Shown here: positions 5,165 through 11,591 of the stretch, in pieces
How the letters are laid out: each line of letters begins with the position of its first letter
Position numbering within the stretch: the stretch's first letter is position 1
Assembly: GCA_903831335.1 (NCBI GenBank)
Contig: CAIKXH010000115.1
Location: forward strand, 1 to 11,591
Direction: 5' to 3'
DNA length: 11,591 bases
Source of the DNA: Candidatus Uhrbacteria bacterium
Lineage (GTDB): Bacteria > Patescibacteriota > Patescibacteriia > UBA9934 > GWF2-40-263
Notes under the pieces: generated by a model
What the model saw: the letters and a program-made list of their open reading frames with translations, nothing else
Told to the model about the DNA's origin: nothing
Databases searched by the model: none
Translations under genes and position numbers: made by a program

Positions 5165-5188
5165 AAAAAAAAGACCCTAGAAAGGATC
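5165..5188 (-). terminator. Terminator at the end of the minus-strand small-gene array
   Basis: On the minus strand GATCC pairs with GGGTC around TTTCTA (5173-5188), followed by eight T residues (5165-5172). It lies 30 nt beyond the last array gene and faces the smc terminator. Confidence 0.7.
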
Positions 5189-5555: not shown

Positions 5556-5903
5556 TCACGCATCTTTCTTTGCGCGATCCTTCTGTTCACGCATGATACG
5601 TCGTTGTTCTCTTTTGACCAGCGTGTCGAGTGATGCCCTGGATGTTGTCGTGAGAAAAACCCATCCGTTCTTTGCAACATGCCGACTGCTTTCGATCGGC
5701 AAATCGATGACGTCAGAATCTGCTTCCGAAAGACGGAACGAAATCACTCCGTCCTGAACCACACGTTCCGCCACGAATCCACTTACGCGCAGAAAATTCA
5801 GGATATTTTCCGGAACTCCGTTTGCAAGCGGCATGCTGAACGAAATGGCGCGACCAAGCACGATGGCAAGCCACGCATTCTTCAAAAGATCTTCGTTGCT
5901 CAT
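5556..5903 (-). CDS. Hypothetical protein, 115 aa
   Basis: No family is recognised. The protein starts MSNEDLLKNAWLAIVLGRAISF, has a mixed hydrophobic/acidic middle (SFRLSEADSDVIDLP), and ends in a strongly charged probable helix (KREQRRIMREQKDRAKKDA) that could bind nucleic acid or a partner. There is no signal peptide or clear membrane segment. The ATG at 5903 is chosen because AAGGAG (5910-5915) sits six bases upstream; the frame stays open for 36 more codons, but these run through element A and are not protein-like. A hairpin GCAAA/TTTGC (5916-5932) stands directly before the SD. The stop is followed after three bases by a run of nine G on the coding strand. Confidence 0.65.
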   Translation of the reverse strand: MSNEDLLKNAWLAIVLGRAISFSMPLANGVPENILNFLRVSGFVAERVVQDGVISFRLSEADSDVIDLPIESSRHVAKNGWVFLTTTSRASLDTLVKREQRRIMREQKDRAKKDA

Positions 5904-5931: not shown

Positions 5932-6004
5932 CTTCTGAGAAACCACGAACTTTTTCGTAGCCTCTGGAAAAGCGGCGAGATGTATCTCACCAAAGAAAAG
6001 AACA
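5932..6004 (-). repeat. Structured intergenic element, copy A
   Basis: Minus-strand order: GTTC, P1 with GGTGAGAT/ATCTCGCC (5974-5991), linker GCTTTTCCAGAG, P2 with CTACGAA/TTCGTGG (5943-5960), then TTTCTCAG. P1 contains one G-U pair and P2 one G-U pair that would be mismatches on the plus strand. It lies between the 41-aa and 115-aa genes. Confidence 0.75.
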
Positions 6005-6017
6005 GAAACACATGGAA

Positions 6018-6143
6018 TCATTTTCGCTTCAGAGAACGCTTTTCTTTCCACTCCATCCACTTCACGATCATGAATGGATAATTCGTCACAAGCAAAGCAA
6101 TCACGATCCCCGAAAGAAGAACGATAGCAGCTTCCCACGTCAT
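6018..6143 (-). CDS. Very small single-pass membrane protein, 41 aa
   Basis: The ORF begins ATG at 6143 with AAGGAG five bases upstream and ends TGA at 6018-6020. Residues about 5-20 (AAIVLLSGIVIALLV) form one transmembrane helix. The tail MEWKEKRSLKRK is basic and would stay in the cytoplasm. No family is recognised. It fills the slot between elements A and B just as larger ORFs fill the other slots, which supports it as real. CTCC eight or nine bases before GGAG could pair with the SD and mask it. Confidence 0.65.
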   Translation of the reverse strand: MTWEAAIVLLSGIVIALLVTNYPFMIVKWMEWKEKRSLKRK

Positions 6144-6192
6144 GTGCACTCCTTGAAGTCCGGAGAAAGGTTTTGTAGCTTTCATTCAAATG

Positions 6193-6274
6193 AACTTCCG
6201 CAGAACATCCCACCAATAGATTCAATGAGAGTCTCTGGAAAAGTGGCGAGGATAATCTCGCCGAGGGAAAGAAC
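6193..6274 (-). repeat. Structured intergenic element, copy B
   Basis: Minus-strand order: GTTCTTTCCCTC, P1 GGCGAG/CTCGCC (6245-6262), linker CACTTTTCCAGAGACT, P2 CATTGA/TTGGTG (6211-6227, with G-U pairs), then GTTCTGCGGAAGTTC. It ends about 16 nt from the stop of the 112-aa gene. Confidence 0.8.
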
Positions 6275-6290
6275 GGGCTTCTTTACTTGA

Positions 6291-6629
6291 TTATGGCTTG
6301 CGAAAACGTGGCTGGAATGGCCTTGGTGGCCGATCGCGCCATTCATCGATTTCGGCAAGTGAAGAACTGCTTCCATTCGTGCCCAACGAGTCGAGAGATG
6401 GCTCGCGGGAACGAACGGGAAACTGGAACACGATCGCATCAGGCCGATCATCGATCTGTTCCGGATCAGACTCCGCCCGCTTCGCACTCAGTGCTGCCTC
6501 AGCGAGCTGCCGACGATCCTCTTCCATGAACACTTTCCTTTCCGCCACACGACGGAGAATGATGTAACCCGCAAGGACCAAAAGTCCTACAATGGCTGCA
6601 GCGAGAATCGCTGTGAAAACCGTTCCCAT
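6291..6629 (-). CDS. Small N-terminally anchored membrane protein, 112 aa
   Basis: The first 26 residues (MGTVFTAILAAAIVGLLVLAGYIILR) form one transmembrane helix. A charged helix (RRVAERKVFMEEDRRQLAEAALSAKRAE) and a Ser/Pro/Arg-rich tail ending RPPRPFQPRFRKP follow. No family is recognised; the layout suggests a membrane-anchored cytoplasmic protein. The ATG at 6629 is ten bases from a strong GGAGG (6640-6644), and an in-frame TTG at 6638 is too close to the SD. An out-of-frame ATG at 6634, at better distance, opens a 15-codon ORF overlapping the gene start; it might be a leader that affects translation. Elements B and C flank the gene. Confidence 0.65.
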   Translation of the reverse strand: MGTVFTAILAAAIVGLLVLAGYIILRRVAERKVFMEEDRRQLAEAALSAKRAESDPEQIDDRPDAIVFQFPVRSREPSLDSLGTNGSSSSLAEIDEWRDRPPRPFQPRFRKP

Positions 6630-6660
6630 GACATTCAAGCCTCCTGTCTTTATAGCCTTT

Positions 6661-6737
6661 CTGTTTCACAGATTCCACAAACGACCTTCGTTCATGATCT
6701 CTGAAAAATGGACGAGAAGATCTCGTCGAGAAAAAAG
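6661..6737 (-). repeat. Structured intergenic element, copy C
   Basis: Minus-strand order: P1 GACGAGA/TCTCGTC (6711-6727), linker CATTTTTCAGAGAT, P2 CATGAACGA/TCGTTTGTG (6676-6696), then ATCTGTGAAACAG. Nine of nine P2 positions pair on the minus strand, two of them as G-U. It begins three bases after the stop of the 144-aa gene. Confidence 0.8.
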
Positions 6738-6740
6738 TGT

Positions 6741-7175
6741 TTACAATTTGTACGCGGTGATGAAGACGATGGGAGTGTTCAACCAACGCTCTGCATCTTC
6801 AAGAAGAGTGAATGCTTTGTACCGACGAATAACGAGATCTCCGTTCAAGAAGATCTTTTCATCACCGTTCACATCCAGATTCACTCCGATCGTGTTCGGT
6901 GAGCAGACACTAACTTGAAAATCCCCTTTCCGCGTTGCACTGATCTTGCCAACGATTTCAACACACTCGTTGAGCAAAAACGGAAGCTCCTTCACGAAAA
7001 TCTTGTCAGGAGATTCCCACACACCGATAAGTACAACGGGATAGTATTTCTCAGCGTCTGTGAGAAGACGACTGATACTTATTCCTGAATTTTGGAAGGA
7101 CTCAATCAGATCCGTTCCGATGAGTAATTGTGTCATTCCGTCTTTCCAGTGTATCCGATATGACTTCAGAAGCAT
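6741..7175 (-). CDS. Hypothetical protein, 144 aa
   Basis: A soluble-looking protein of mixed alpha/beta character, beginning MLLKSYRIHWKDGMTQLLIG and ending VFITAYKL. No motif or family is recognised. The stretch KIFLNGDLVIRRYKAFTLLEDAERWL reads like a beta hairpin followed by an amphipathic helix. The start at 7175 is preceded by AAGGAG four bases upstream. An upstream open stretch of 36 codons runs through element D and is not protein-like. It is the first gene behind the promoter at 7319-7347. Confidence 0.7.
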   Translation of the reverse strand: MLLKSYRIHWKDGMTQLLIGTDLIESFQNSGISISRLLTDAEKYYPVVLIGVWESPDKIFVKELPFLLNECVEIVGKISATRKGDFQVSVCSPNTIGVNLDVNGDEKIFLNGDLVIRRYKAFTLLEDAERWLNTPIVFITAYKL

Positions 7176-7221
7176 GGTTCTCCTTTTTTGTCGGTAGCGA
7201 TCAGCTTGTTGGAAACGAACA

Positions 7222-7313
7222 GACATTCTCAGAACACGCGATCCGTGATTGATCACGTTTTCTGAAAAGGGCCCCGCACACATCTCTGAAGATGCGCCGA
7301 GGCAGTAGTGAAC
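7222..7313 (-). repeat. Structured intergenic element, copy D
   Basis: Minus-strand order: GTTCACTACTGCCTCG, P1 GCGCATCT/AGATGTGTGC (about 7276-7297), linker GGCCCTTTTCAGA, P2 AAACGTGATC/GATCGCGTGT (7234-7260, one mismatch), then TCTGAGAATG. The 5' GTTC coincides with the predicted start of transcription from the promoter at 7319-7347. Confidence 0.75.
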
Positions 7314-7318
7314 AAAGA

Positions 7319-7347
7319 ATTCTACACAGAAAAGTCGAGTACGTCAA
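7319..7347 (-). promoter_or_regulatory. Sigma70-type promoter within the array
   Basis: On the minus strand TTGACG (7342-7347), a spacer of exactly 17 bp, and TAGAAT (7319-7324); each box matches five of six consensus bases. The predicted start near 7313 is the G of the GTTC that begins element D. It would transcribe the genes from 7175 down to 5218. Confidence 0.7.
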
Positions 7348-7357
7348 CCATTGGGTG

Positions 7358-7437
7358 AGTAGTTAGAAGTTGGTAGTTCGTAGTTAGGGTAGGAAGCGTG
7401 TTCACGCCTAACTACTAACTTCTAACTACAAACTACT
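7358..7437. repeat. GTAGTT-rich inverted repeat, copy 1
   Basis: Two 31-nt arms (7358-7388 and 7407-7437), built from GTAGTT/AACTAC-type heptads, face each other around a centre containing AGGAAGCG. The arms are imperfectly complementary. The right arm provides the TAG stop of the 74-aa gene. A second copy lies at 11476-11559. Confidence 0.85.
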
Positions 7438-7657
7438 TCTTCCCTTTGGCGAATTCGAGAACCGAGACAAGGATCAAGGCGATGCAAATCGACTTGAGTG
7501 GTTCGTGATACACGTACACCACTACGTCACGTACCCATCCAAGCACCATCGCAAAGACGGGAATGAATTTTGCGAGGAGGAAGATCGGGATCAGGAAGAG
7601 CGCAAAGAGGAAGGACCAGCACAGAATCTTGTAACCGATTTCAAAGAGCGTGCTCAT
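7433..7657 (-). CDS. Small membrane protein with two probable helices, 74 aa
   Basis: A first long hydrophobic stretch (about 11-40, ILCWSFLFALFLIPIFLLAK and onward) and a second near the end (ICIALILVSVLEF) suggest two or three membrane passes with a short KGKK tail in the cytoplasm. No family is recognised. The ATG at 7657 has AAAGGA about nine bases upstream. A hairpin TCGCTG/CAGCGA (7671-7695) stands directly before the SD. The stop codon TAG lies inside the GTAGTT inverted repeat, so insertion of that repeat may have set the present C-terminus. Confidence 0.65.
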   Translation of the reverse strand: MSTLFEIGYKILCWSFLFALFLIPIFLLAKFIPVFAMVLGWVRDVVVYVYHEPLKSICIALILVSVLEFAKGKK

Positions 7658-7711
7658 GTGTATATTCCTTTCGCTGGCAATATTTTTTGCAGCGATAAAA
7701 GAAGTGTGAAG

Positions 7712-7787
7712 CGTTCGCAGATCGCCCGATCGCCAATCGATCAGGATCTCTGGAAAAGTGGCGAATGAATTCGCCAAAGTGAAAAGG
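7712..7787 (-). repeat. Structured intergenic element, copy E
   Basis: Minus-strand order: P1 GGCGAA/TTCGCC (7760-7775), linker CACTTTTCCAGAGAT, P2 CCTGATCG/CGATCGGG (7725-7745, eight of eight paired, one G-U on the minus strand), then CGATCTGCGAACG. CAGA/TCTG closes P2. Confidence 0.8.
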
Positions 7788-7801
7788 TGGTTGTGAAAGA
7801 A

Positions 7802-8146
7802 CTAGGCCTGATAATCATCGAATGCCGCGTGGTCCTCACCCTCGTTGTTGTCGTCCTCTTCTTCGTGGTGATGGTCGTCGTTGTCGTCCTCATCGTCATA
7901 TACAAAACATTTTTCGTCGACCTGAACGTTGTCCATCATCGACGCGCTCTGTTCTTCAGCGACGAATTCAGATTCAGACTCTGACTCCCCCACACTCAGC
8001 GCGTCGCACATGAGCAAATGAGGATCATCGATCTTTTCGGTGTCGCCCCACAATGAACTCAAGGCAACCAAACCAACAACGATCAAGGCGGTGACCCAAT
8101 CAGGAATCACGAACGTTCGATCCTTCACAGTGATCAGTAGATCCAC
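7802..8146 (-). CDS. Small membrane protein with an acidic tail, 114 aa
   Basis: Residues about 17-34 (WVTALIVVGLVALSSLWG) form one transmembrane helix. The remainder is very acidic, with a Ser/Glu stretch (GESESESEF) and a tail of Asp, Glu and three His (DDEDDNDDHHHEEEDDNNEG), which could bind divalent metal such as Ca2+ or Ni2+. No family is recognised. The start is GTG at 8146, with GGAGGG just upstream. A hairpin GCT..GCGA/TCGC..AGC in the leader (about 8156-8178) precedes the SD. Low-complexity tails of this kind can give misleading matches. Confidence 0.65.
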   Translation of the reverse strand: MDLLITVKDRTFVIPDWVTALIVVGLVALSSLWGDTEKIDDPHLLMCDALSVGESESESEFVAEEQSASMMDNVQVDEKCFVYDDEDDNDDHHHEEEDDNNEGEDHAAFDDYQA

Positions 8147-8197
8147 TCACCCTCCAAGCTGCGAACCAAATCGCGAGCCAATGAAACTTGTTTATAT

Positions 8198-8317
8198 CTG
8201 CAGATCTCCCCACCAACCGTTTGGTGAGAGTCTCTGAAAAGGGCCCCGACGAATATTCTTGCGGAATATTGTCGAGGCGGGTTCAACACGATTCGGAGAA
8301 TCCGAGGCGGGTCGAAC
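8198..8317 (-). repeat. Structured intergenic element, copy F (with P0)
   Basis: Minus-strand order: P0 with arms GTTCGAC/GTTGAAC (8281-8317), P1 CGACAATATTC/GAATATTCGTCG with a one-base bulge (8247-8274), linker GGCCCTTTTCAGAGACT, P2 CACCAA/TTGGTG (8211-8226), then GAGATCTGCAG. It differs from copy G at about seven positions by my count. Confidence 0.85.
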
Positions 8318-8333
8318 AGTTGAGAAAGATCCA

Positions 8334-9059
8334 TCACAACGCAAGTGCCGCCGCACATTTTGCTGGCAAACCGATTGCGTCCCCATCATAGGAGTCCACG
8401 ATCTCGAGATCATATGCTGGAAGCACCTTAATCTCACTTGTAACATCCTTCCATATTCCACCCGTAATGAGATAGACCTTTGGAAGAGTGAGTTTCAAGT
8501 CAATTTTCTTTACCAAGGAGCCTTCGCAAACCGTCCAGATACTTGGGTAATCCGCGACGTTGAACGCGACCGTGTAACCAGAAGTGTTCTTGTCGAGATC
8601 CATTGCCACAAACGTCCTTGGACTGAATGTGCCACCCAACCACGATTCATCGAAAAAAGTTTTTGAACTAAATTCTGGATTCTTAGAAAATTTGTAATAG
8701 AGCGCTGACACGTATGGAGTGTATTCAGGAGCATCCCCGTACACAAGCACAAGCTTGTACGACGTCTTGTCCACACCCTCTACGGTCGGGCAAGTAGGAA
8801 GCCCCGGATGTATGCTCGCATCGTTGTCGTTGCAGTCGCCAAAGGCTGGATAGCCGTCGTGATCTGCATCCACAGTAAGAGGATCTTCTTTGACTACTGT
8901 CGTCTGTTCTTGAGAAAGAACAATGCCTGCGCCAGACACTTCCGACGTCTGGCTTGTTGCATCCGTTTGCGTCACCTGCTGAATCTCGAAATGCATATCC
9001 GAGGCTTCACAAGCGGCAAGCAAAAAAAGCGACGAGATAAACCAACGCGCATATTTCAT
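8334..9059 (-). CDS. Lipoprotein with a MopE-like metal-binding motif
   Basis: The 241-residue product begins with a lipoprotein signal (FISSLFLLAAC, lipidated Cys17) and should sit on the outer face of the membrane. After a Thr/Ser/Gln-rich linker, residues 64-85 hold one copy of the D-x-D-x-DG-Y motif with DCND and IHPG. This is the motif of the MopE-type putative metal-binding repeat found in many surface proteins; the Asp side chains would hold Ca2+ or Cu. The region from about 95 to the end is a beta-rich domain I do not recognise; Cys90, Cys178 and Cys235 might pair. The ATG at 9059 is used because AGAGGGG lies eight bases upstream; an in-frame GTG at 9068 overlaps the SD. It is the largest gene of the array. 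Confidence 0.8.
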   Translation of the reverse strand: MKYARWFISSLFLLAACEASDMHFEIQQVTQTDATSQTSEVSGAGIVLSQEQTTVVKEDPLTVDADHDGYPAFGDCNDNDASIHPGLPTCPTVEGVDKTSYKLVLVYGDAPEYTPYVSALYYKFSKNPEFSSKTFFDESWLGGTFSPRTFVAMDLDKNTSGYTVAFNVADYPSIWTVCEGSLVKKIDLKLTLPKVYLITGGIWKDVTSEIKVLPAYDLEIVDSYDGDAIGLPAKCAAALAL

Positions 9060-9083
9060 TTTATGCACCCCTCTTCATCGGAT

Positions 9084-9209
9084 CAACTTTCGCAGATCTC
9101 CCCACCAACCGTTTGGTGAGAGTCTCTGGAAAAGGCCCCGACGAATATTCTTGCGGAATATTGTCGAGGCGGGTTCAACACGATTCGGAAGTTCCGAAGT
9201 GGGTCGAAC
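9084..9209 (-). repeat. Structured intergenic element, copy G (with P0)
   Basis: Same layout as copy F: P0 (9173-9209, tip TTCGGA/TCCGAA), P1 (9139-9166), linker with CCTTTTCCAGAGACT, P2 CACCAA/TTGGTG (9103-9118), then GAGATCTGCGAAAGTT. It starts about 20 nt after the stop of the 183-aa gene. Confidence 0.85.
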
Positions 9210-9228
9210 AGGTTGGGGAAAGAATGAA

Positions 9229-9780
9229 CTAACCTTCTGGGAAGTAGAAGCCGAAGATCTGCTTGTGGCTGAGACCGTCGTAGGCGTCCGAACAGACTCC
9301 TGTGAACGGTCTGCTGCCCATCTTTGCTTCGTACGTGCACCGCTCACCGTCTTCCGACTGCGTGAACGTGATCTTGTTCCCTTCACCGCAGGTGAAGAGG
9401 AGCGATCGACGACCGAATTCGAGAGAGACGAAATCGTCGAACTGTTGAATGAACATTTGCTGGATCACCAAAGGGTGACTCAGTGCCGCAGCGCTGACAA
9501 GCTCGTGCAGGCAATGCGCCAGACGAAACTTGTCGTCGATCGCCTTGATCTGTACTTCTGTGAGCGCGTTCGGATTGTCCGGACCTTCGTAGTCCGCCAT
9601 GATGTCGCGGGACTCCTCGGCATCCTTCGGCGGATTGCATCCCTGCTCTTCGCAGAGATCCACGTACTGGCCACACGCCGAGCAGCGCTCCTCGCCGTGA
9701 TCATCGCGGTACGTCTTCGGAACATCCGAAACTTCGGTCGATCCACACGCACACCCAGCACAACCATTCGCGCATGCCAT
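9229..9780 (-). CDS. Cys-rich N-terminus protein, 183 aa, unknown function
   Basis: The N-terminus MACANGCAGCACG carries Cys3, 7, 10 and 12; a second group CSAC (33, 36), Cys43 and Cys48 follows. Two Cys4-type metal sites (zinc ribbon or similar) are plausible. The rest (about 60-183) looks like a soluble alpha/beta domain with a helix-rich middle (FRLAHCLHELVSAAALSHPLV) and aromatic strands at the end. No family is recognised. The ATG at 9780 has GGAG eight bases upstream; the longer open frame reads through the P3 leader and element H and is not protein-like. The leader is one of two identical 40-bp copies. Base composition is more GC-rich than in the core genes. Confidence 0.7.
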   Translation of the reverse strand: MACANGCAGCACGSTEVSDVPKTYRDDHGEERCSACGQYVDLCEEQGCNPPKDAEESRDIMADYEGPDNPNALTEVQIKAIDDKFRLAHCLHELVSAAALSHPLVIQQMFIQQFDDFVSLEFGRRSLLFTCGEGNKITFTQSEDGERCTYEAKMGSRPFTGVCSDAYDGLSHKQIFGFYFPEG

Positions 9781-9817
9781 GATCTTTCTCCACGCCGACG
9801 CTTTACGCGCAGGCAAA
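9778..9817 (-). promoter_or_regulatory. Translation leader, copy 1, with SD and hairpin P3
   Basis: This 40-bp stretch is identical to 10210-10249. On the minus strand GCCTGCGC pairs with GCGTCGGC (one T-C mismatch, one G-U), then GGAG and the start codon follow. It belongs to the 183-aa gene. Confidence 0.8.
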
Positions 9818-9825
9818 CACTGAAT

Positions 9826-9924
9826 GAACTTTCGCAGATCACCACATCGACCAATTCGATGAGAGTCTCTGGAAAAGGCCCGGACAAACATTCGTGAAAA
9901 TGTTGTCGAGGCAGATGAAGGAAC
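9826..9924 (-). repeat. Structured intergenic element, copy H
   Basis: Minus-strand order: GTTCCTTCATCTGCCTC, P1 GACAACATT/AATGTTTGTC with a one-base bulge at the same place as in F and G (9883-9907), linker GGCCTTTTCCAGAGACT, P2 CATCGA/TCGATG (9845-9861), then GATCTGCGAAAGTTC. P0 is absent. Confidence 0.85.
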
Positions 9925-9930
9925 GAAATG

Positions 9931-10212
9931 CTACACGCCCCGACGATCAGAGCCGCCACTCGAAGAGCCGTTCACGATCTCGAGAACGTAGTGCTCGAGG
10001 TTGTAGTCCTGATTGCTGCTCGCATCGCGACGCTTCTTGAATGCGATCCAGAGCGCTTCGCCGCAAGGAGTCTTGTCGCAGAACAGCTCGATCTGATCGA
10101 GATTGAGACGAAGACCCGCAATGATCCTTGGAAGGAACATCAAGCCAATGAGGCCTTCAGGCTTCCTTCCCAACTTCACCGCCACCCGCTGCACGCGCGC
10201 GTACTCTGTCAT
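9931..10212 (-). CDS. Hypothetical protein, 93 aa
   Basis: A small soluble-looking protein, beginning MTEYARVQRVAVKLGRKPEG, with a hydrophobic centre (LIGLMFLPRIIAGLRLNL) and a Gly/Ser-rich end (NGSSSGGSDRRGV). No family is recognised. The ATG at 10212 follows GGAG by eight bases in the repeated 40-bp leader. Only 52 bases separate it from the stop of the upstream 117-aa gene, with no A-J type element between, so the two genes form one unit. Confidence 0.6.
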   Translation of the reverse strand: MTEYARVQRVAVKLGRKPEGLIGLMFLPRIIAGLRLNLDQIELFCDKTPCGEALWIAFKKRRDASSNQDYNLEHYVLEIVNGSSSGGSDRRGV

Positions 10213-10249
10213 GATCTTTCTCCACGCCGACGCTTTACGCGCAGGCAAA
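10210..10249 (-). promoter_or_regulatory. Translation leader, copy 2, identical to copy 1
   Basis: All 40 bases match 9778-9817, including hairpin P3, the SD and the ATG. It precedes the 93-aa gene. Confidence 0.8.
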
Positions 10250-10264
10250 ATGTGAGCGAACGTA

Positions 10265-10618
10265 TTACGCCGCACGTCGGCGAAACATCTCGAAACGAGT
10301 CCTTTGGTTCGACTTGGTCTGGAGCGGAGGAAACAGCACGTCGACCCAGGTGTTCGGACGATTCACCTGACCGCACTCCGCGATCAGCGTGATGCAGGCA
10401 GACACCCTGATGCCGTTTTGGATGGGTTCGAAGTTCGTGGGAACATCGACCTCCATACGGCGCGACGACGTGTGGTTTCTGAACACAAACGTGACGAACG
10501 ACACATTCTCTTCGAACGTAACCGTCCACCGCTTGAGCTGCTCCCGCTTCACCCCCGCATGCGCGACGAGTGTTTCGAATGCAGCCTTCGCAGCCATCTC
10601 ATGTTGACGAGCATTCAT
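10265..10618 (-). CDS. Hypothetical protein, 117 aa
   Basis: The protein starts with a helix (MNARQHEMAAKAAFETLVAH) and continues with alternating strands (KRWTVTFEENVSFVTFVF, RRMEVDVP, GIRVSACITLIAE, TWVDVLFPPL), suggesting a small alpha+beta fold with a sheet. No family is recognised. The ATG at 10618 is preceded by AGGAG at six bases. Its leader contains the CCCCCTCC hairpin (10640-10662) in the place where other genes have P3. It is followed closely by the 93-aa gene. Confidence 0.65.
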   Translation of the reverse strand: MNARQHEMAAKAAFETLVAHAGVKREQLKRWTVTFEENVSFVTFVFRNHTSSRRMEVDVPTNFEPIQNGIRVSACITLIAECGQVNRPNTWVDVLFPPLQTKSNQRTRFEMFRRRAA

Positions 10619-10639
10619 GTTGGTCTCCTGTTGAATTTT

Positions 10640-10662
10640 CCCCCTCCTTCACAAGGAGGGGG
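10640..10662. repeat. CCCCCTCC/GGAGGGGG hairpin repeat
   Basis: CCCCCTCCTT (10640-10649) and AAGGAGGGGG (10653-10662) are perfectly complementary around a 3-nt loop, followed on the plus strand by CAAGGGGGTGGT. Repeats of this look are scattered in many bacterial genomes. It abuts element I and stands before the SD of the 117-aa gene. Confidence 0.8.
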
Positions 10663-10672
10663 CAAGGGGGTG

Positions 10673-10799
10673 GTCGAACTTTCTCAGATCTCACAAGCGA
10701 GAGTCGCTTGCAGTCTCTGAAAAGGGCCCCGACGAATATCCTTGCGAATATTGTCGAGGCGGGTTCGACACGATTCGGGAATTCCGAAGCGGGTCGAAC
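10673..10799 (-). repeat. Structured intergenic element, copy I (with P0)
   Basis: Minus-strand order: P0 with perfect arms GTTCGAC/GTCGAAC (10763-10799), P1 CGACAATATTC/GATATTCGTCG (10730-10756), linker GGCCCTTTTCAGAGACT, P2 GCAAGCG/CGCTTGT (10693-10711), then GAGATCTGAGAAAGTTCGAC. The plus-strand sequence GGTCGAAC occurs at both outer ends (10672-10679 and 10792-10799). Confidence 0.85.
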
Positions 10800-10815
10800 A
10801 GTTGAGGAAGAACTT

Positions 10816-11034
10816 CTAGAGCAGGCCGATCAGTCCGTGGAAGAAATCCTCGGGCGTGAGCGTCCTCGTCTCGCCGGCCGTGCAGCCGATGCGAATGGCG
10901 ATGAACAATCGCGTCTTCGAATCATCGCCGACCAGCCCTTGCCGGATGGCCTCTTCGAACGTCAGCTCGCTGACCTGGTAGGGATCTCCCCACGCGTCAC
11001 GAATGGCCTGAACGAATTCACGAGTCAATTCCAT
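10816..11034 (-). CDS. Hypothetical protein, 72 aa
   Basis: A small acidic, soluble-looking protein (MELTREFVQAIRDAWGDPYQ at the start, TLTPEDFFHGLIGLL at the end), mostly helical by appearance. No family is recognised. The ATG at 11034 has GGAG about six bases upstream and a P3 hairpin in front of it. Element I begins some 16 nt after its stop. Some of its sequence (VSELTFEEAIRQGLVGDDSKTR) reads like a domain that contacts another protein, but that is only an impression. Confidence 0.6.
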   Translation of the reverse strand: MELTREFVQAIRDAWGDPYQVSELTFEEAIRQGLVGDDSKTRLFIAIRIGCTAGETRTLTPEDFFHGLIGLL

Positions 11035-11070
11035 GTCTCTCTCCGTGCCGACGACGTTGTCGCAGGCAAA
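11032..11070 (-). promoter_or_regulatory. Translation leader with hairpin P3, variant copy
   Basis: On the minus strand GCCTGCGAC pairs with GTCGTCGGC around AAC, with the same T-C mismatch as in the 40-bp leaders, but with changed tip bases that still pair. SD GGAG and the start codon of the 72-aa gene follow. Confidence 0.7.
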
Positions 11071-11087
11071 TCTGTGTGGAACTCATG

Positions 11088-11112
11088 TGCCACAATCACC
11101 ATTGATGTGGCA
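11088..11112. repeat. Short hairpin between the 72-aa and 102-aa genes
   Basis: TGCCACAATC pairs with GATGTGGCA around ACCATT, with one bulged A. It takes the place of an A-J type element but lacks the linker and P2. No T-run follows, so terminator function is doubtful. Confidence 0.5.
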
Positions 11113-11123
11113 TTGAAGTCCGA

Positions 11124-11432
11124 CTAGTCGTTCGGAACAGGGATGTACATGTTGAGACCTTCCGGCGCTTCCGGAAGATCACGTGCTTCTTTGCGGTAGA
11201 CACAGCCATCCTGGCAGAGTTCCGCATCCTCTACGTCCGACGAGTAATTGCACGCGCACATCCGAGACTCCCGACGAAGTTGAGCGCGGCGCTCTTCCAC
11301 GCAGTCGGGGCACTGTGCGGTCGAGATGTGCTGGCCTTTGCAAGCCGCATCCGCCGCACTTCCTGGAACGACGTAATAGAGATGGTTGATGTCACCACTG
11401 ATGCAGCTCACCATTCGACGAGTATCACTCAT
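11124..11432 (-). CDS. Cys-rich probable metal-binding protein, 102 aa
   Basis: Cysteines are at 10, 31, 41, 44, 59, 61, 73 and 77. The stretch CKGQHISTAQCPDCVEERR contains CPDC with an upstream His, and CAC lies at 59-61. Cys/His pairs spaced this way usually hold zinc; one or two sites are plausible. No signal peptide or membrane helix is seen. No family is recognised. The ATG at 11432 has AGGAG about six bases upstream and a P3 hairpin before it. Like the 183-aa gene it encodes a Cys-rich product, but I see no clear sequence similarity between the two. Confidence 0.65.
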   Translation of the reverse strand: MSDTRRMVSCISGDINHLYYVVPGSAADAACKGQHISTAQCPDCVEERRAQLRRESRMCACNYSSDVEDAELCQDGCVYRKEARDLPEAPEGLNMYIPVPND

Positions 11433-11466
11433 GATTGCTCCTGTGCCGACGACGTTGTCGCAAGCG
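11430..11466 (-). promoter_or_regulatory. Translation leader with hairpin P3, second variant
   Basis: Shares the GCGACAACGTCGTCGGCAC core with 11032-11070 but diverges next to the start codon (AGGAGCAATC). The hairpin stands directly before the SD of the 102-aa gene. Confidence 0.7.
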
Positions 11467-11475
11467 TTATGAAGA

Positions 11476-11559
11476 AGTAGTTAGAAGTTGGTAGTTAGTA
11501 GTTAGGGCAGGAAGCGAGTTTACAAAACCCTAACTTCGAACTACGAACTACAAACTACT
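11476..11559. repeat. GTAGTT-rich inverted repeat, copy 2
   Basis: Arms at 11476-11506 and 11529-11559 of the same heptad type as copy 1; the left arms of the two copies differ at only one or two positions. The centre again contains AGGAAGCG. It lies between element J and the leader of the 102-aa gene. Confidence 0.85.
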
Positions 11560-11567
11560 GACCTCAG

Positions 11568-11591
11568 GTCGAACTTTCTCAGATCTCACAA
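11568..11591 (-). repeat. Structured intergenic element, copy J (cut by window end)
   Basis: The last 24 bases of the window equal 10673-10696, the outer end of element I (GTCGAAC, then the TCTCAGATCTC part). The rest of the element, and so more of the array, continues beyond the window. Confidence 0.75.

Follow-up and report, generated by a model that had tools for sequence, protein, structure and literature searches.

A repeated two-hairpin element in an array of small genes

The present study describes a two-hairpin element that is repeated through an array of small genes in a genome of Candidatus Uhrbacteria. The DNA analysed, called the window throughout, is one entire contig of 11,591 nucleotides (nt) (CAIKXH010000115.1), and its source genome (G000; 852 kb in 176 contigs) is 81% complete. 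The left part of the window carries a Clp protease gene, a DHH-family gene and smc; the right part carries the array, 13 small genes on the minus strand by our gene calls, none of which has a Pfam family above cut-off. Between these genes, and on the same strand, lie nine full copies (A to I) and one cut copy (J) of the element. It is read here, tentatively, as a structured RNA leader that is repeated before many cistrons of a long operon, acts on the mRNA and has been spread by duplication and gene conversion.

The sense-strand order in all nine copies is a hairpin P1, then a hairpin P2. Folded singly, the nine gave z-scores of -2.35 to -5.77 against dinucleotide shuffles. A covariance model (R1) was built from these nine copies only, and its matches were counted at E <= 0.01. 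The folds and the R1 matches bear out what an earlier reading of the sequence alone (the original prediction) had said, namely that nine full copies and a partial one lie on the minus strand.

5933..5992, minus strand: element A, P1 5973-5992, P2 5933-5976; fold and R1 match of 38.5 bits
6193..6262, minus strand: element B, P1 6245-6262, P2 6193-6247; fold and 57.8 bits
6664..6727, minus strand: element C, P1 6711-6727, P2 6664-6713; fold and 55.9 bits
7222..7303, minus strand: element D, P1 7271-7303, P2 7222-7274; fold and 60.3 bits
7710..7776, minus strand: element E, P1 7759-7776, P2 7710-7762; fold and 60.7 bits
8193..8278, minus strand: element F, P1 (type c) 8243-8278, P2 8193-8246; fold and 62 bits
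9085..9170, minus strand: element G, P1 (type c) 9135-9170, P2 9085-9138; fold and 73.6 bits
9827..9912, minus strand: element H, P1 (type c) 9878-9912, P2 9827-9881; fold and 70.5 bits
10677..10760, minus strand: element I, P1 (type c) 10726-10760, P2 10677-10729; fold and 66.7 bits
11572..11591, minus strand: element J, a 20-nt 3' fragment whose 5' side is cut by the contig end; 21 bits

P2 is a helix of 18 pairs with an internal loop. Its anatomy was read from an alignment (A4) of 28 copies, 11 from G000 and 7, 6 and 4 from three further genomes of the same genus (G001, G003 and G004). At the base 5' CTTTT pairs with GAAAG at the far end. Above it stands a single opposed position, unpaired in 20 of the 28 copies, then CAGA/TCTG, and then a 3x3 internal loop in which GAY lies opposite NGA. 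This loop is tandem GA/GA in 21 of the 28 and could form tandem G-A pairs. The upper stem of about nine pairs differs in sequence from copy to copy. The base is nearly invariant across the four genomes, and outside the helices the 3x3 loop alone is conserved (A4, by inspection). A metabolite riboswitch would be expected to hold a ligand core conserved at unpaired or junction positions, for which A4 shows this loop and nothing else. The predicted layout of P1, linker, P2 and tail stands, with the correction that the linker (YTTTTC) and the tail (GAAAG) pair as the base of P2.

P1 comprises at least four unlike hairpin types. Its end directly abuts P2 in 20 of the 28 copies and is 1-2 nt off in five and 7-8 nt off in three, as placed by a simple helix finder without bulges; one of the 20 abutting copies scores poorly. 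The type-a hairpin takes the P1 position in other species; copies F, G and I carry it as an additional hairpin, P0. Among 15 type-a copies, most of them picked by a pattern restricting the end bases, 89.1% of cells are paired and the covariation score is 0.385 against 0.232 in shuffles; neither the 5 doubly changed pairs (shuffles 4.2) nor the 10 further pair types (11.0) stand above the shuffles. The change with kept pairing that had been claimed for P1 stems is seen within type a; over all copies covariation of P1 is not meaningful, because P1 is a set of unlike, interchangeable types.

A third hairpin, P3, precedes some of the ribosome-binding sites. It is short and ends TCGGC/T a few bases before GGAG. 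Since it was found through this TCGGC/T...GGAG motif, the constancy of the motif is due to the way the copies were selected. The nine copies, eight of them distinct, come from four genomes and covary: all 56 of 56 cells pair, with three doubly changed pairs against 1.2 in shuffles. The P0 and P3 hairpins of the window are as follows.

8281..8317, minus strand: extra type-a hairpin P0 before element F (alignment A6)
9173..9209, minus strand: extra type-a hairpin P0 before element G
10763..10799, minus strand: extra type-a hairpin P0 before element I
9785..9815, minus strand: P3 at the ribosome-binding site of gene 9229-9780 (alignment A7)
10217..10247, minus strand: P3 at the ribosome-binding site of gene 9931-10212, at a junction without P1-P2
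11039..11068, minus strand: P3 at the ribosome-binding site of gene 10816-11034, at a junction without P1-P2
11435..11466, minus strand: P3 at the ribosome-binding site of gene 11124-11432

Covariation of P2

In the nine window copies 93.0% of the 157 cells of P2 pair, against 82.4% in shuffled alignments and at most 50.0% in slid ones. For covariation they score 0.380, a value that none of 500 shuffles reaches (0.170) and that sliding brings down to 0.162 or less. Their four doubly changed pairs are not above shuffles (338 of 500 reach that number). The compensatory change that had been taken for the mark of selection on structure is upheld by the covariation score, and it holds in the 28 copies. 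Since a model of the structure under test served both to find these copies and to align them, they are biased towards it; 92.9% of their 476 cells are paired. Their score of 0.304 compares with 0.122 for shuffles and no more than 0.113 for slid alignments, and none of 500 shuffles reaches their nine doubly changed pairs (5.4 in shuffles). Double changes are many in the upper stem, where 89.1% of cells still pair. A tree-based null was also applied in a home-made test of the R-scape kind (FastTree tree, independent columns, 120 simulations). It was found that two of the 1275 column pairs have E<0.05, both of them in P2; by this stand-in for R-scape there is covariation above a phylogenetic null, the lack of which would have refuted the original prediction. 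Of the remaining 16 of the 18 P2 pairs, one has E=0.56 and 15 fall short of significance, in several cases for want of variation.

Distribution and novelty

R1 gave eleven matches in its own genome, nine in the window contig and two in contig C65, and 17 in G001, G003 (98% complete) and G004 (77%). A search of related genomes with a covariance model had been proposed, and a model made from the window alone thus recovered copies in three of them. No match was found in G002, of the same genus and 56% complete, in 30 genomes of other genera of the family or in 24 genomes of the order. A second model (R2), run with stricter filters at which weak matches are lost, matched 4 of 72 genomes of the order, all of one genus. 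Among these 72 genomes the family is thus confined to a single genus.

When the five genomes of that genus were searched with greater sensitivity, the search revealed a second locus, a small-gene array beside a TrmB-like regulator and a gene like that for DNA polymerase delta-prime (our naming from sequence); its pieces are L061, L059, L098, L099 and L100. Matches there are significant in G000, G003 and G004 and weak in G002 (E 0.017) and G001 (E 0.12). A third site is the grpE-dnaK region (L082, L083), in which small orphan genes followed by an element are present in G001 and G003 and neither is present in G000, G002 and G004; the G003 element there is a weak match (E 0.17) recognised partly by eye. 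A P2-like palindromic hairpin lies right behind the grpE stop codon in G001 and a more diverged one in G003. Matches at E<=0.01 are confined to the smc array, the second small-gene array and the dnaK operon, contigs C3 and C43 of G004 being assumed to be array pieces in this count, and no genome-wide scatter like that of repetitive extragenic palindromic (REP) sequences is seen.

That the element matches no named RNA family is supported by Rfam 15: with E up to 10 the window has nine matches, all below the gathering score and none overlapping the elements. The open literature searched gave nothing on such elements in Uhrbacteria. ANTAR proteins have tandem-hairpin antiterminators as targets, two neighbouring hairpins in leaders; two neighbouring hairpins are common to both, but here the loops of P1 and P2 are unconserved (by inspection). 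Structured intercistronic or leader RNA is a known kind. What is new is that a stem base which could be read, an upper stem that is rewritten freely and a swappable hairpin abutting it occur together and are repeated through many cistrons of one operon of orphan genes.

A parallel exists in a sister genus. BH28, taken as G017, belongs to another genus of the same family (SMC 64%) and also has small genes beside smc. Five of the six spacers folded there, with z-scores of -1.99 to -6.80 and one piece cut short, fold into two hairpins with no gap between them, the second longer and interrupted by small internal loops, in sequences unlike those of the window. R1 finds no significant element in the BH28 genome (best E 0.54), and a model of the BH28-type element matches G017 only among the 72 genomes. 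Three further smc loci were inspected and hold nothing comparable. The two genera suggest that the layout is kept while the sequence is not.

Position of the element and signals of an apparent operon

It had been claimed that an element lies between nearly every gene. By our gene calls this is so at 9 of the 12 gene junctions of the window and not at the remaining three. In three genomes, with gene starts chosen by us from ribosome-binding sites, a P2 element occupies 20 of the 26 spacers of at least 100 nt and none of the ten shorter ones. The distance from the end of P2 to the next start codon is 16-85 nt.

At the rpsP end of the array stands a promoter, TTGACA-17 nt-TATATT, alike in G001, G003 and G004. 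The smc end has strong T-rich terminator hairpins in the window and in G001. A promoter at one end and terminators at the other suggest that the array is one long operon. Within it, element D has a promoter-like site before it and the start of gene 6741-7175 after it, with no gene between site and element, and the first element of G004 likewise follows a promoter-like site with no gene between. These two copies thus place the element in the leader of the downstream gene, and on the strength of these leader positions it is tied here to the downstream cistron.

5173..5188, minus strand: terminator-like hairpin followed by eight T, at the array end facing smc
7319..7347, minus strand: promoter-like site before element D, TTGACG-17-TAGAAT, matching the consensus at 10 of 12 positions

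The arrays of G001 (L054:4827-5010) and G003 (L055:4008-4220) begin with a like promoter, a long leader and a strong terminator-like hairpin before the first gene, AACCAATGATT or AACCAATGTTT ... AATCATTGG, followed by T-rich sequence. This leader looks like an attenuator, and its GAGAGAG / CTCTC stretch could provide an alternative pairing. Another repeated structured spacer, which lacks P2 (TTAGCYTCGCGCGAATGAGAG ...), is common to these two genomes (L054:5626-5828 and L055:4640-4760).

Gene turnover and exchange between copies

The genes of the array change rapidly between species. When 11 window genes were compared by BLASTP with the arrays of other species, only 2 had a match, and the order differs; genes 6018-6143 and 5556-5903 were omitted from this comparison, a spurious frame having been chosen, and a few frames elsewhere may be wrong. 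The DHH protein adjoining smc is 85% identical between G000 and G001, and a search with smc, which places the window among Candidatus Uhrbacteria, gave RIFCSPLOWO2_01_FULL_47_17 as the nearest named genome, its SMC being 85% identical to that of the window. Three array proteins have near relatives in the protein database at 68-94% identity. The array genes are listed below.

11124..11432, minus strand: array gene, 102 amino acids (aa); no Pfam family above cut-off
10816..11034, minus strand: array gene, 72 aa; no Pfam family above cut-off
10265..10618, minus strand: array gene, 117 aa; relatives in two other species at 37-39% identity
9931..10212, minus strand: array gene, 93 aa; no Pfam family
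9229..9780, minus strand: array gene, 183 aa; N-terminus rich in cysteine; four near relatives
8334..9062, minus strand: array gene, lipoprotein-like (by eye); sub-threshold MopE metal-binding motif; relatives in three other genomes
7802..8146, minus strand: array gene, 114 aa; one membrane segment and an acidic tail (by eye)
7433..7657, minus strand: array gene, 74 aa; membrane protein (by eye)
6741..7175, minus strand: array gene, 144 aa; one cluster of near relatives
6291..6629, minus strand: array gene, 112 aa; one membrane segment (by eye)
6018..6143, minus strand: array gene, 41 aa; one membrane segment (by eye)
5556..5903, minus strand: array gene, 115 aa
5218..5454, minus strand: final array gene, 78 aa; lipoprotein-like (by eye)

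The copies of the element bear signs of exchange. F and G, which flank the lipoprotein-like gene 8334-9062, share 94% identity over 120 nt. A chimera stands at L055:10150, where the element's 5' part agrees with one neighbour at 59 of 66 positions and with the other at 29 of 66, and its 3' part agrees with that other neighbour at 55 of 56 and with the first at 49 of 57. Thus copies exchange sequence, by homologous recombination or gene conversion. Some copies resemble each other before the same gene. The P2 elements before the 117-aa gene in G000 and G003 are alike at 42 of 53 aligned positions, and in both genomes P2 is followed by a CCACCCCC...CCCCCTCCTTGTGAAGG stretch. The protein itself is predicted to form a helix and an antiparallel sheet, the C-terminal 17 residues being without a confident model.

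Two further repeats were seen in the window. An inverted repeat of the GTAGTTAGAAGTT type occurs at 7358-7437 and 11476-11559, about 4.1 kb apart. Another, of the GTCATTGCGAGCGAAGCGAAGCAATC type, lies between genes at 1620-1700, with similar sequence upstream of dnaK in G000 and G003, and looks like a dispersed repeat.

A proposed leader acting on the mRNA

Action at the RNA level fits these observations best because the hairpins are co-oriented with the genes, on the sense strand, and fill the spacers of an apparent operon, and because the lower stem and internal loop are near-invariant, as they would be if a protein read them. What the data show is the structure, its covariation, where it lies and the traces of exchange among copies; we infer that the array is transcribed throughout and that the element works in the transcript with a protein partner, to the effect described below. 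The array would then be a long operon of small lineage-specific genes in which the element forms the leader of many cistrons: an interchangeable P1, mostly without a spacer, followed by a P2 with its conserved base and its freely varying, paired upper stem, and in some genes by P3, which would lead into the ribosome-binding site. A candidate RNA-binding or RNA-cleaving protein could read the base of P2 together with its internal loop. Most probably the effect would be to keep adjoining cistrons apart; P1-P2 would separate and protect them in the polycistronic transcript, either by cleavage or by blocking exonucleases and ribosome run-through, and each small gene could then be translated and decay on its own terms. 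Copies would multiply by duplication and gene conversion while genes enter and leave the array. A wider form of this idea is a punctuation system in which the genera of the family keep the two-hairpin layout at the smc-side locus and rewrite its sequence together with a co-evolving RNA-binding or RNA-cleaving protein, so that one reader would serve many cistrons of a fast-changing array of orphan genes; this we regard as rather doubtful.

Several observations weigh against the leader reading. The promoter-like site before copy D is not above chance, five such sites having been found in the region where 4.3 are expected. Beside dnaK the element occurs only where small orphan genes stand upstream (G001, G003), a pattern equally expected of a unit that goes with the upstream gene. 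Copy I has its closest P2 in the first element of G004 (46 of 53), before a different gene, and the 117-aa gene of G001 has a less similar P2 (35 of 53). Only two P2 pairs pass the tree-based null; the copies are related and exchange sequence and so are not independent; and the excess of wobble pairs (60 G-U against 12 A-C cells) is partly due to column composition. In a simple terminator scan one P1 of the nine, that of copy C, passes, and 11 terminator-like sites are counted in the region where 6.7 are expected.

The last two points speak for termination, which is the main rival, although we consider it unlikely. On this view each cistron would be followed by a weak intrinsic terminator or attenuator, formed by P1 with its CTTTT; P2 would be either the second hairpin of a terminator cluster or a read-through control, giving graded or conditional expression. 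P1 is indeed a stable hairpin soon after a stop codon with T-rich sequence behind it, and in G001 and G003 a terminator-like hairpin stands in the leader ahead of the first gene. In PMC8355165 clusters of adjacent hairpins near the stop codon are proposed to terminate without U tracts. The element shares with them the adjacent hairpins near a stop codon and the poor U tract, and differs from them in that homologous, covarying copies lie inside one apparent operon, two of them after promoter-like sites. The 8 nt after P1 hold a mean of 4.1 T (28 elements), against seven or eight at the array and smc terminators, and this T run is paired inside P2; eight of the nine P1 hairpins fail the simple scan. 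Termination after each cistron would also need many internal promoters, of which a simple scan shows no excess (5 against 4.3), and two elements lie after a promoter-like site and before a gene.

As a further rival, P2 could be a processing site of the RNase III type that splits the polycistronic RNA. Between the early genes of phage T7, RNase III cuts double-stranded hairpins of about two turns with an internal loop. P2, with 18 pairs and an internal loop, lies likewise between same-strand cistrons (in 20 of 26 long spacers), and G001, a carrier, has the enzyme, as do G002 and all four other-genus genomes tested. With the Pfam model and the G001 protein as queries it was not found in the carriers G000 (81% complete), G003 (98%) and G004 (77%), and this failure to find it in three of the four carriers weakens a T7-like model. 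Gene loss or draft gaps are possible causes. RNase III is not known to need so strongly conserved a stem base, and the near-invariant base, free upper stem, abutting second hairpin and occurrence, among the 72 genomes, in one genus only further set the element apart from the T7 sites. Processing by RNase III is improbable.

Recombination at the element, left open by the original prediction, would make the locus a gene-cassette array and the element a single-stranded DNA site like integron attC. This we hold to be very improbable. A same-strand array of mostly unrelated small genes with high turnover at a fixed locus would suit it, as would the presence or absence of small genes with the element between grpE and dnaK and an outline of stem, internal loop and variable end. 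In attC sites the ends of the folded site carry the R-box pair RYYYAAC ... GTTRRRY. No such pair was found in the 28 elements with their flanks, single boxes being present in 1 and 4 of them. Among G000, G001, G003 and G004 (77-99% complete) there are six recombinase matches, in the first three, and all but a 209-aa frame of G003 were scanned. Three of these five pass NF040815 (XerA type, 'tyrosine recombinase/integron integrase'), but with the dedicated integron-integrase models all five stay far below the cut-offs (TIGR02249: 49.9-144.9 bits, where 265 are required), and G004 (77% complete) yielded no recombinase. Homologous recombination can account for the chimeric copy as well as for the 120-nt duplication. 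Set beside attC as treated in PMC2727003, the element has in common the repeated foldable sites between small same-strand genes and the variable terminal stem, and it differs in lacking the R-box pair and an integron integrase by dedicated models; recombination of the integron type is not supported. Finally, a palindromic sequence might have been copied by tandem duplication and gene conversion with no role in expression, the elements being a by-product, as the likeness of F and G and the chimera of two neighbouring copies would allow. This too is quite improbable, given that upper stems have doubly changed many times with 89.1% of cells still pairing, that the base is nearly invariant across four genomes, that the copies sit in the wider gaps and that P3 covaries as well.

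The organisation of mRNA in the tiny, uncultured Patescibacteria is poorly known. A covarying leader in many copies and in several species offers a testable handle on it, with many natural variants in one apparent operon. The elements also mark loci at which orphan genes turn over fast between close species, which bears on the gain of genes. If a dedicated reader protein does exist, it would represent a new system of RNA recognition.

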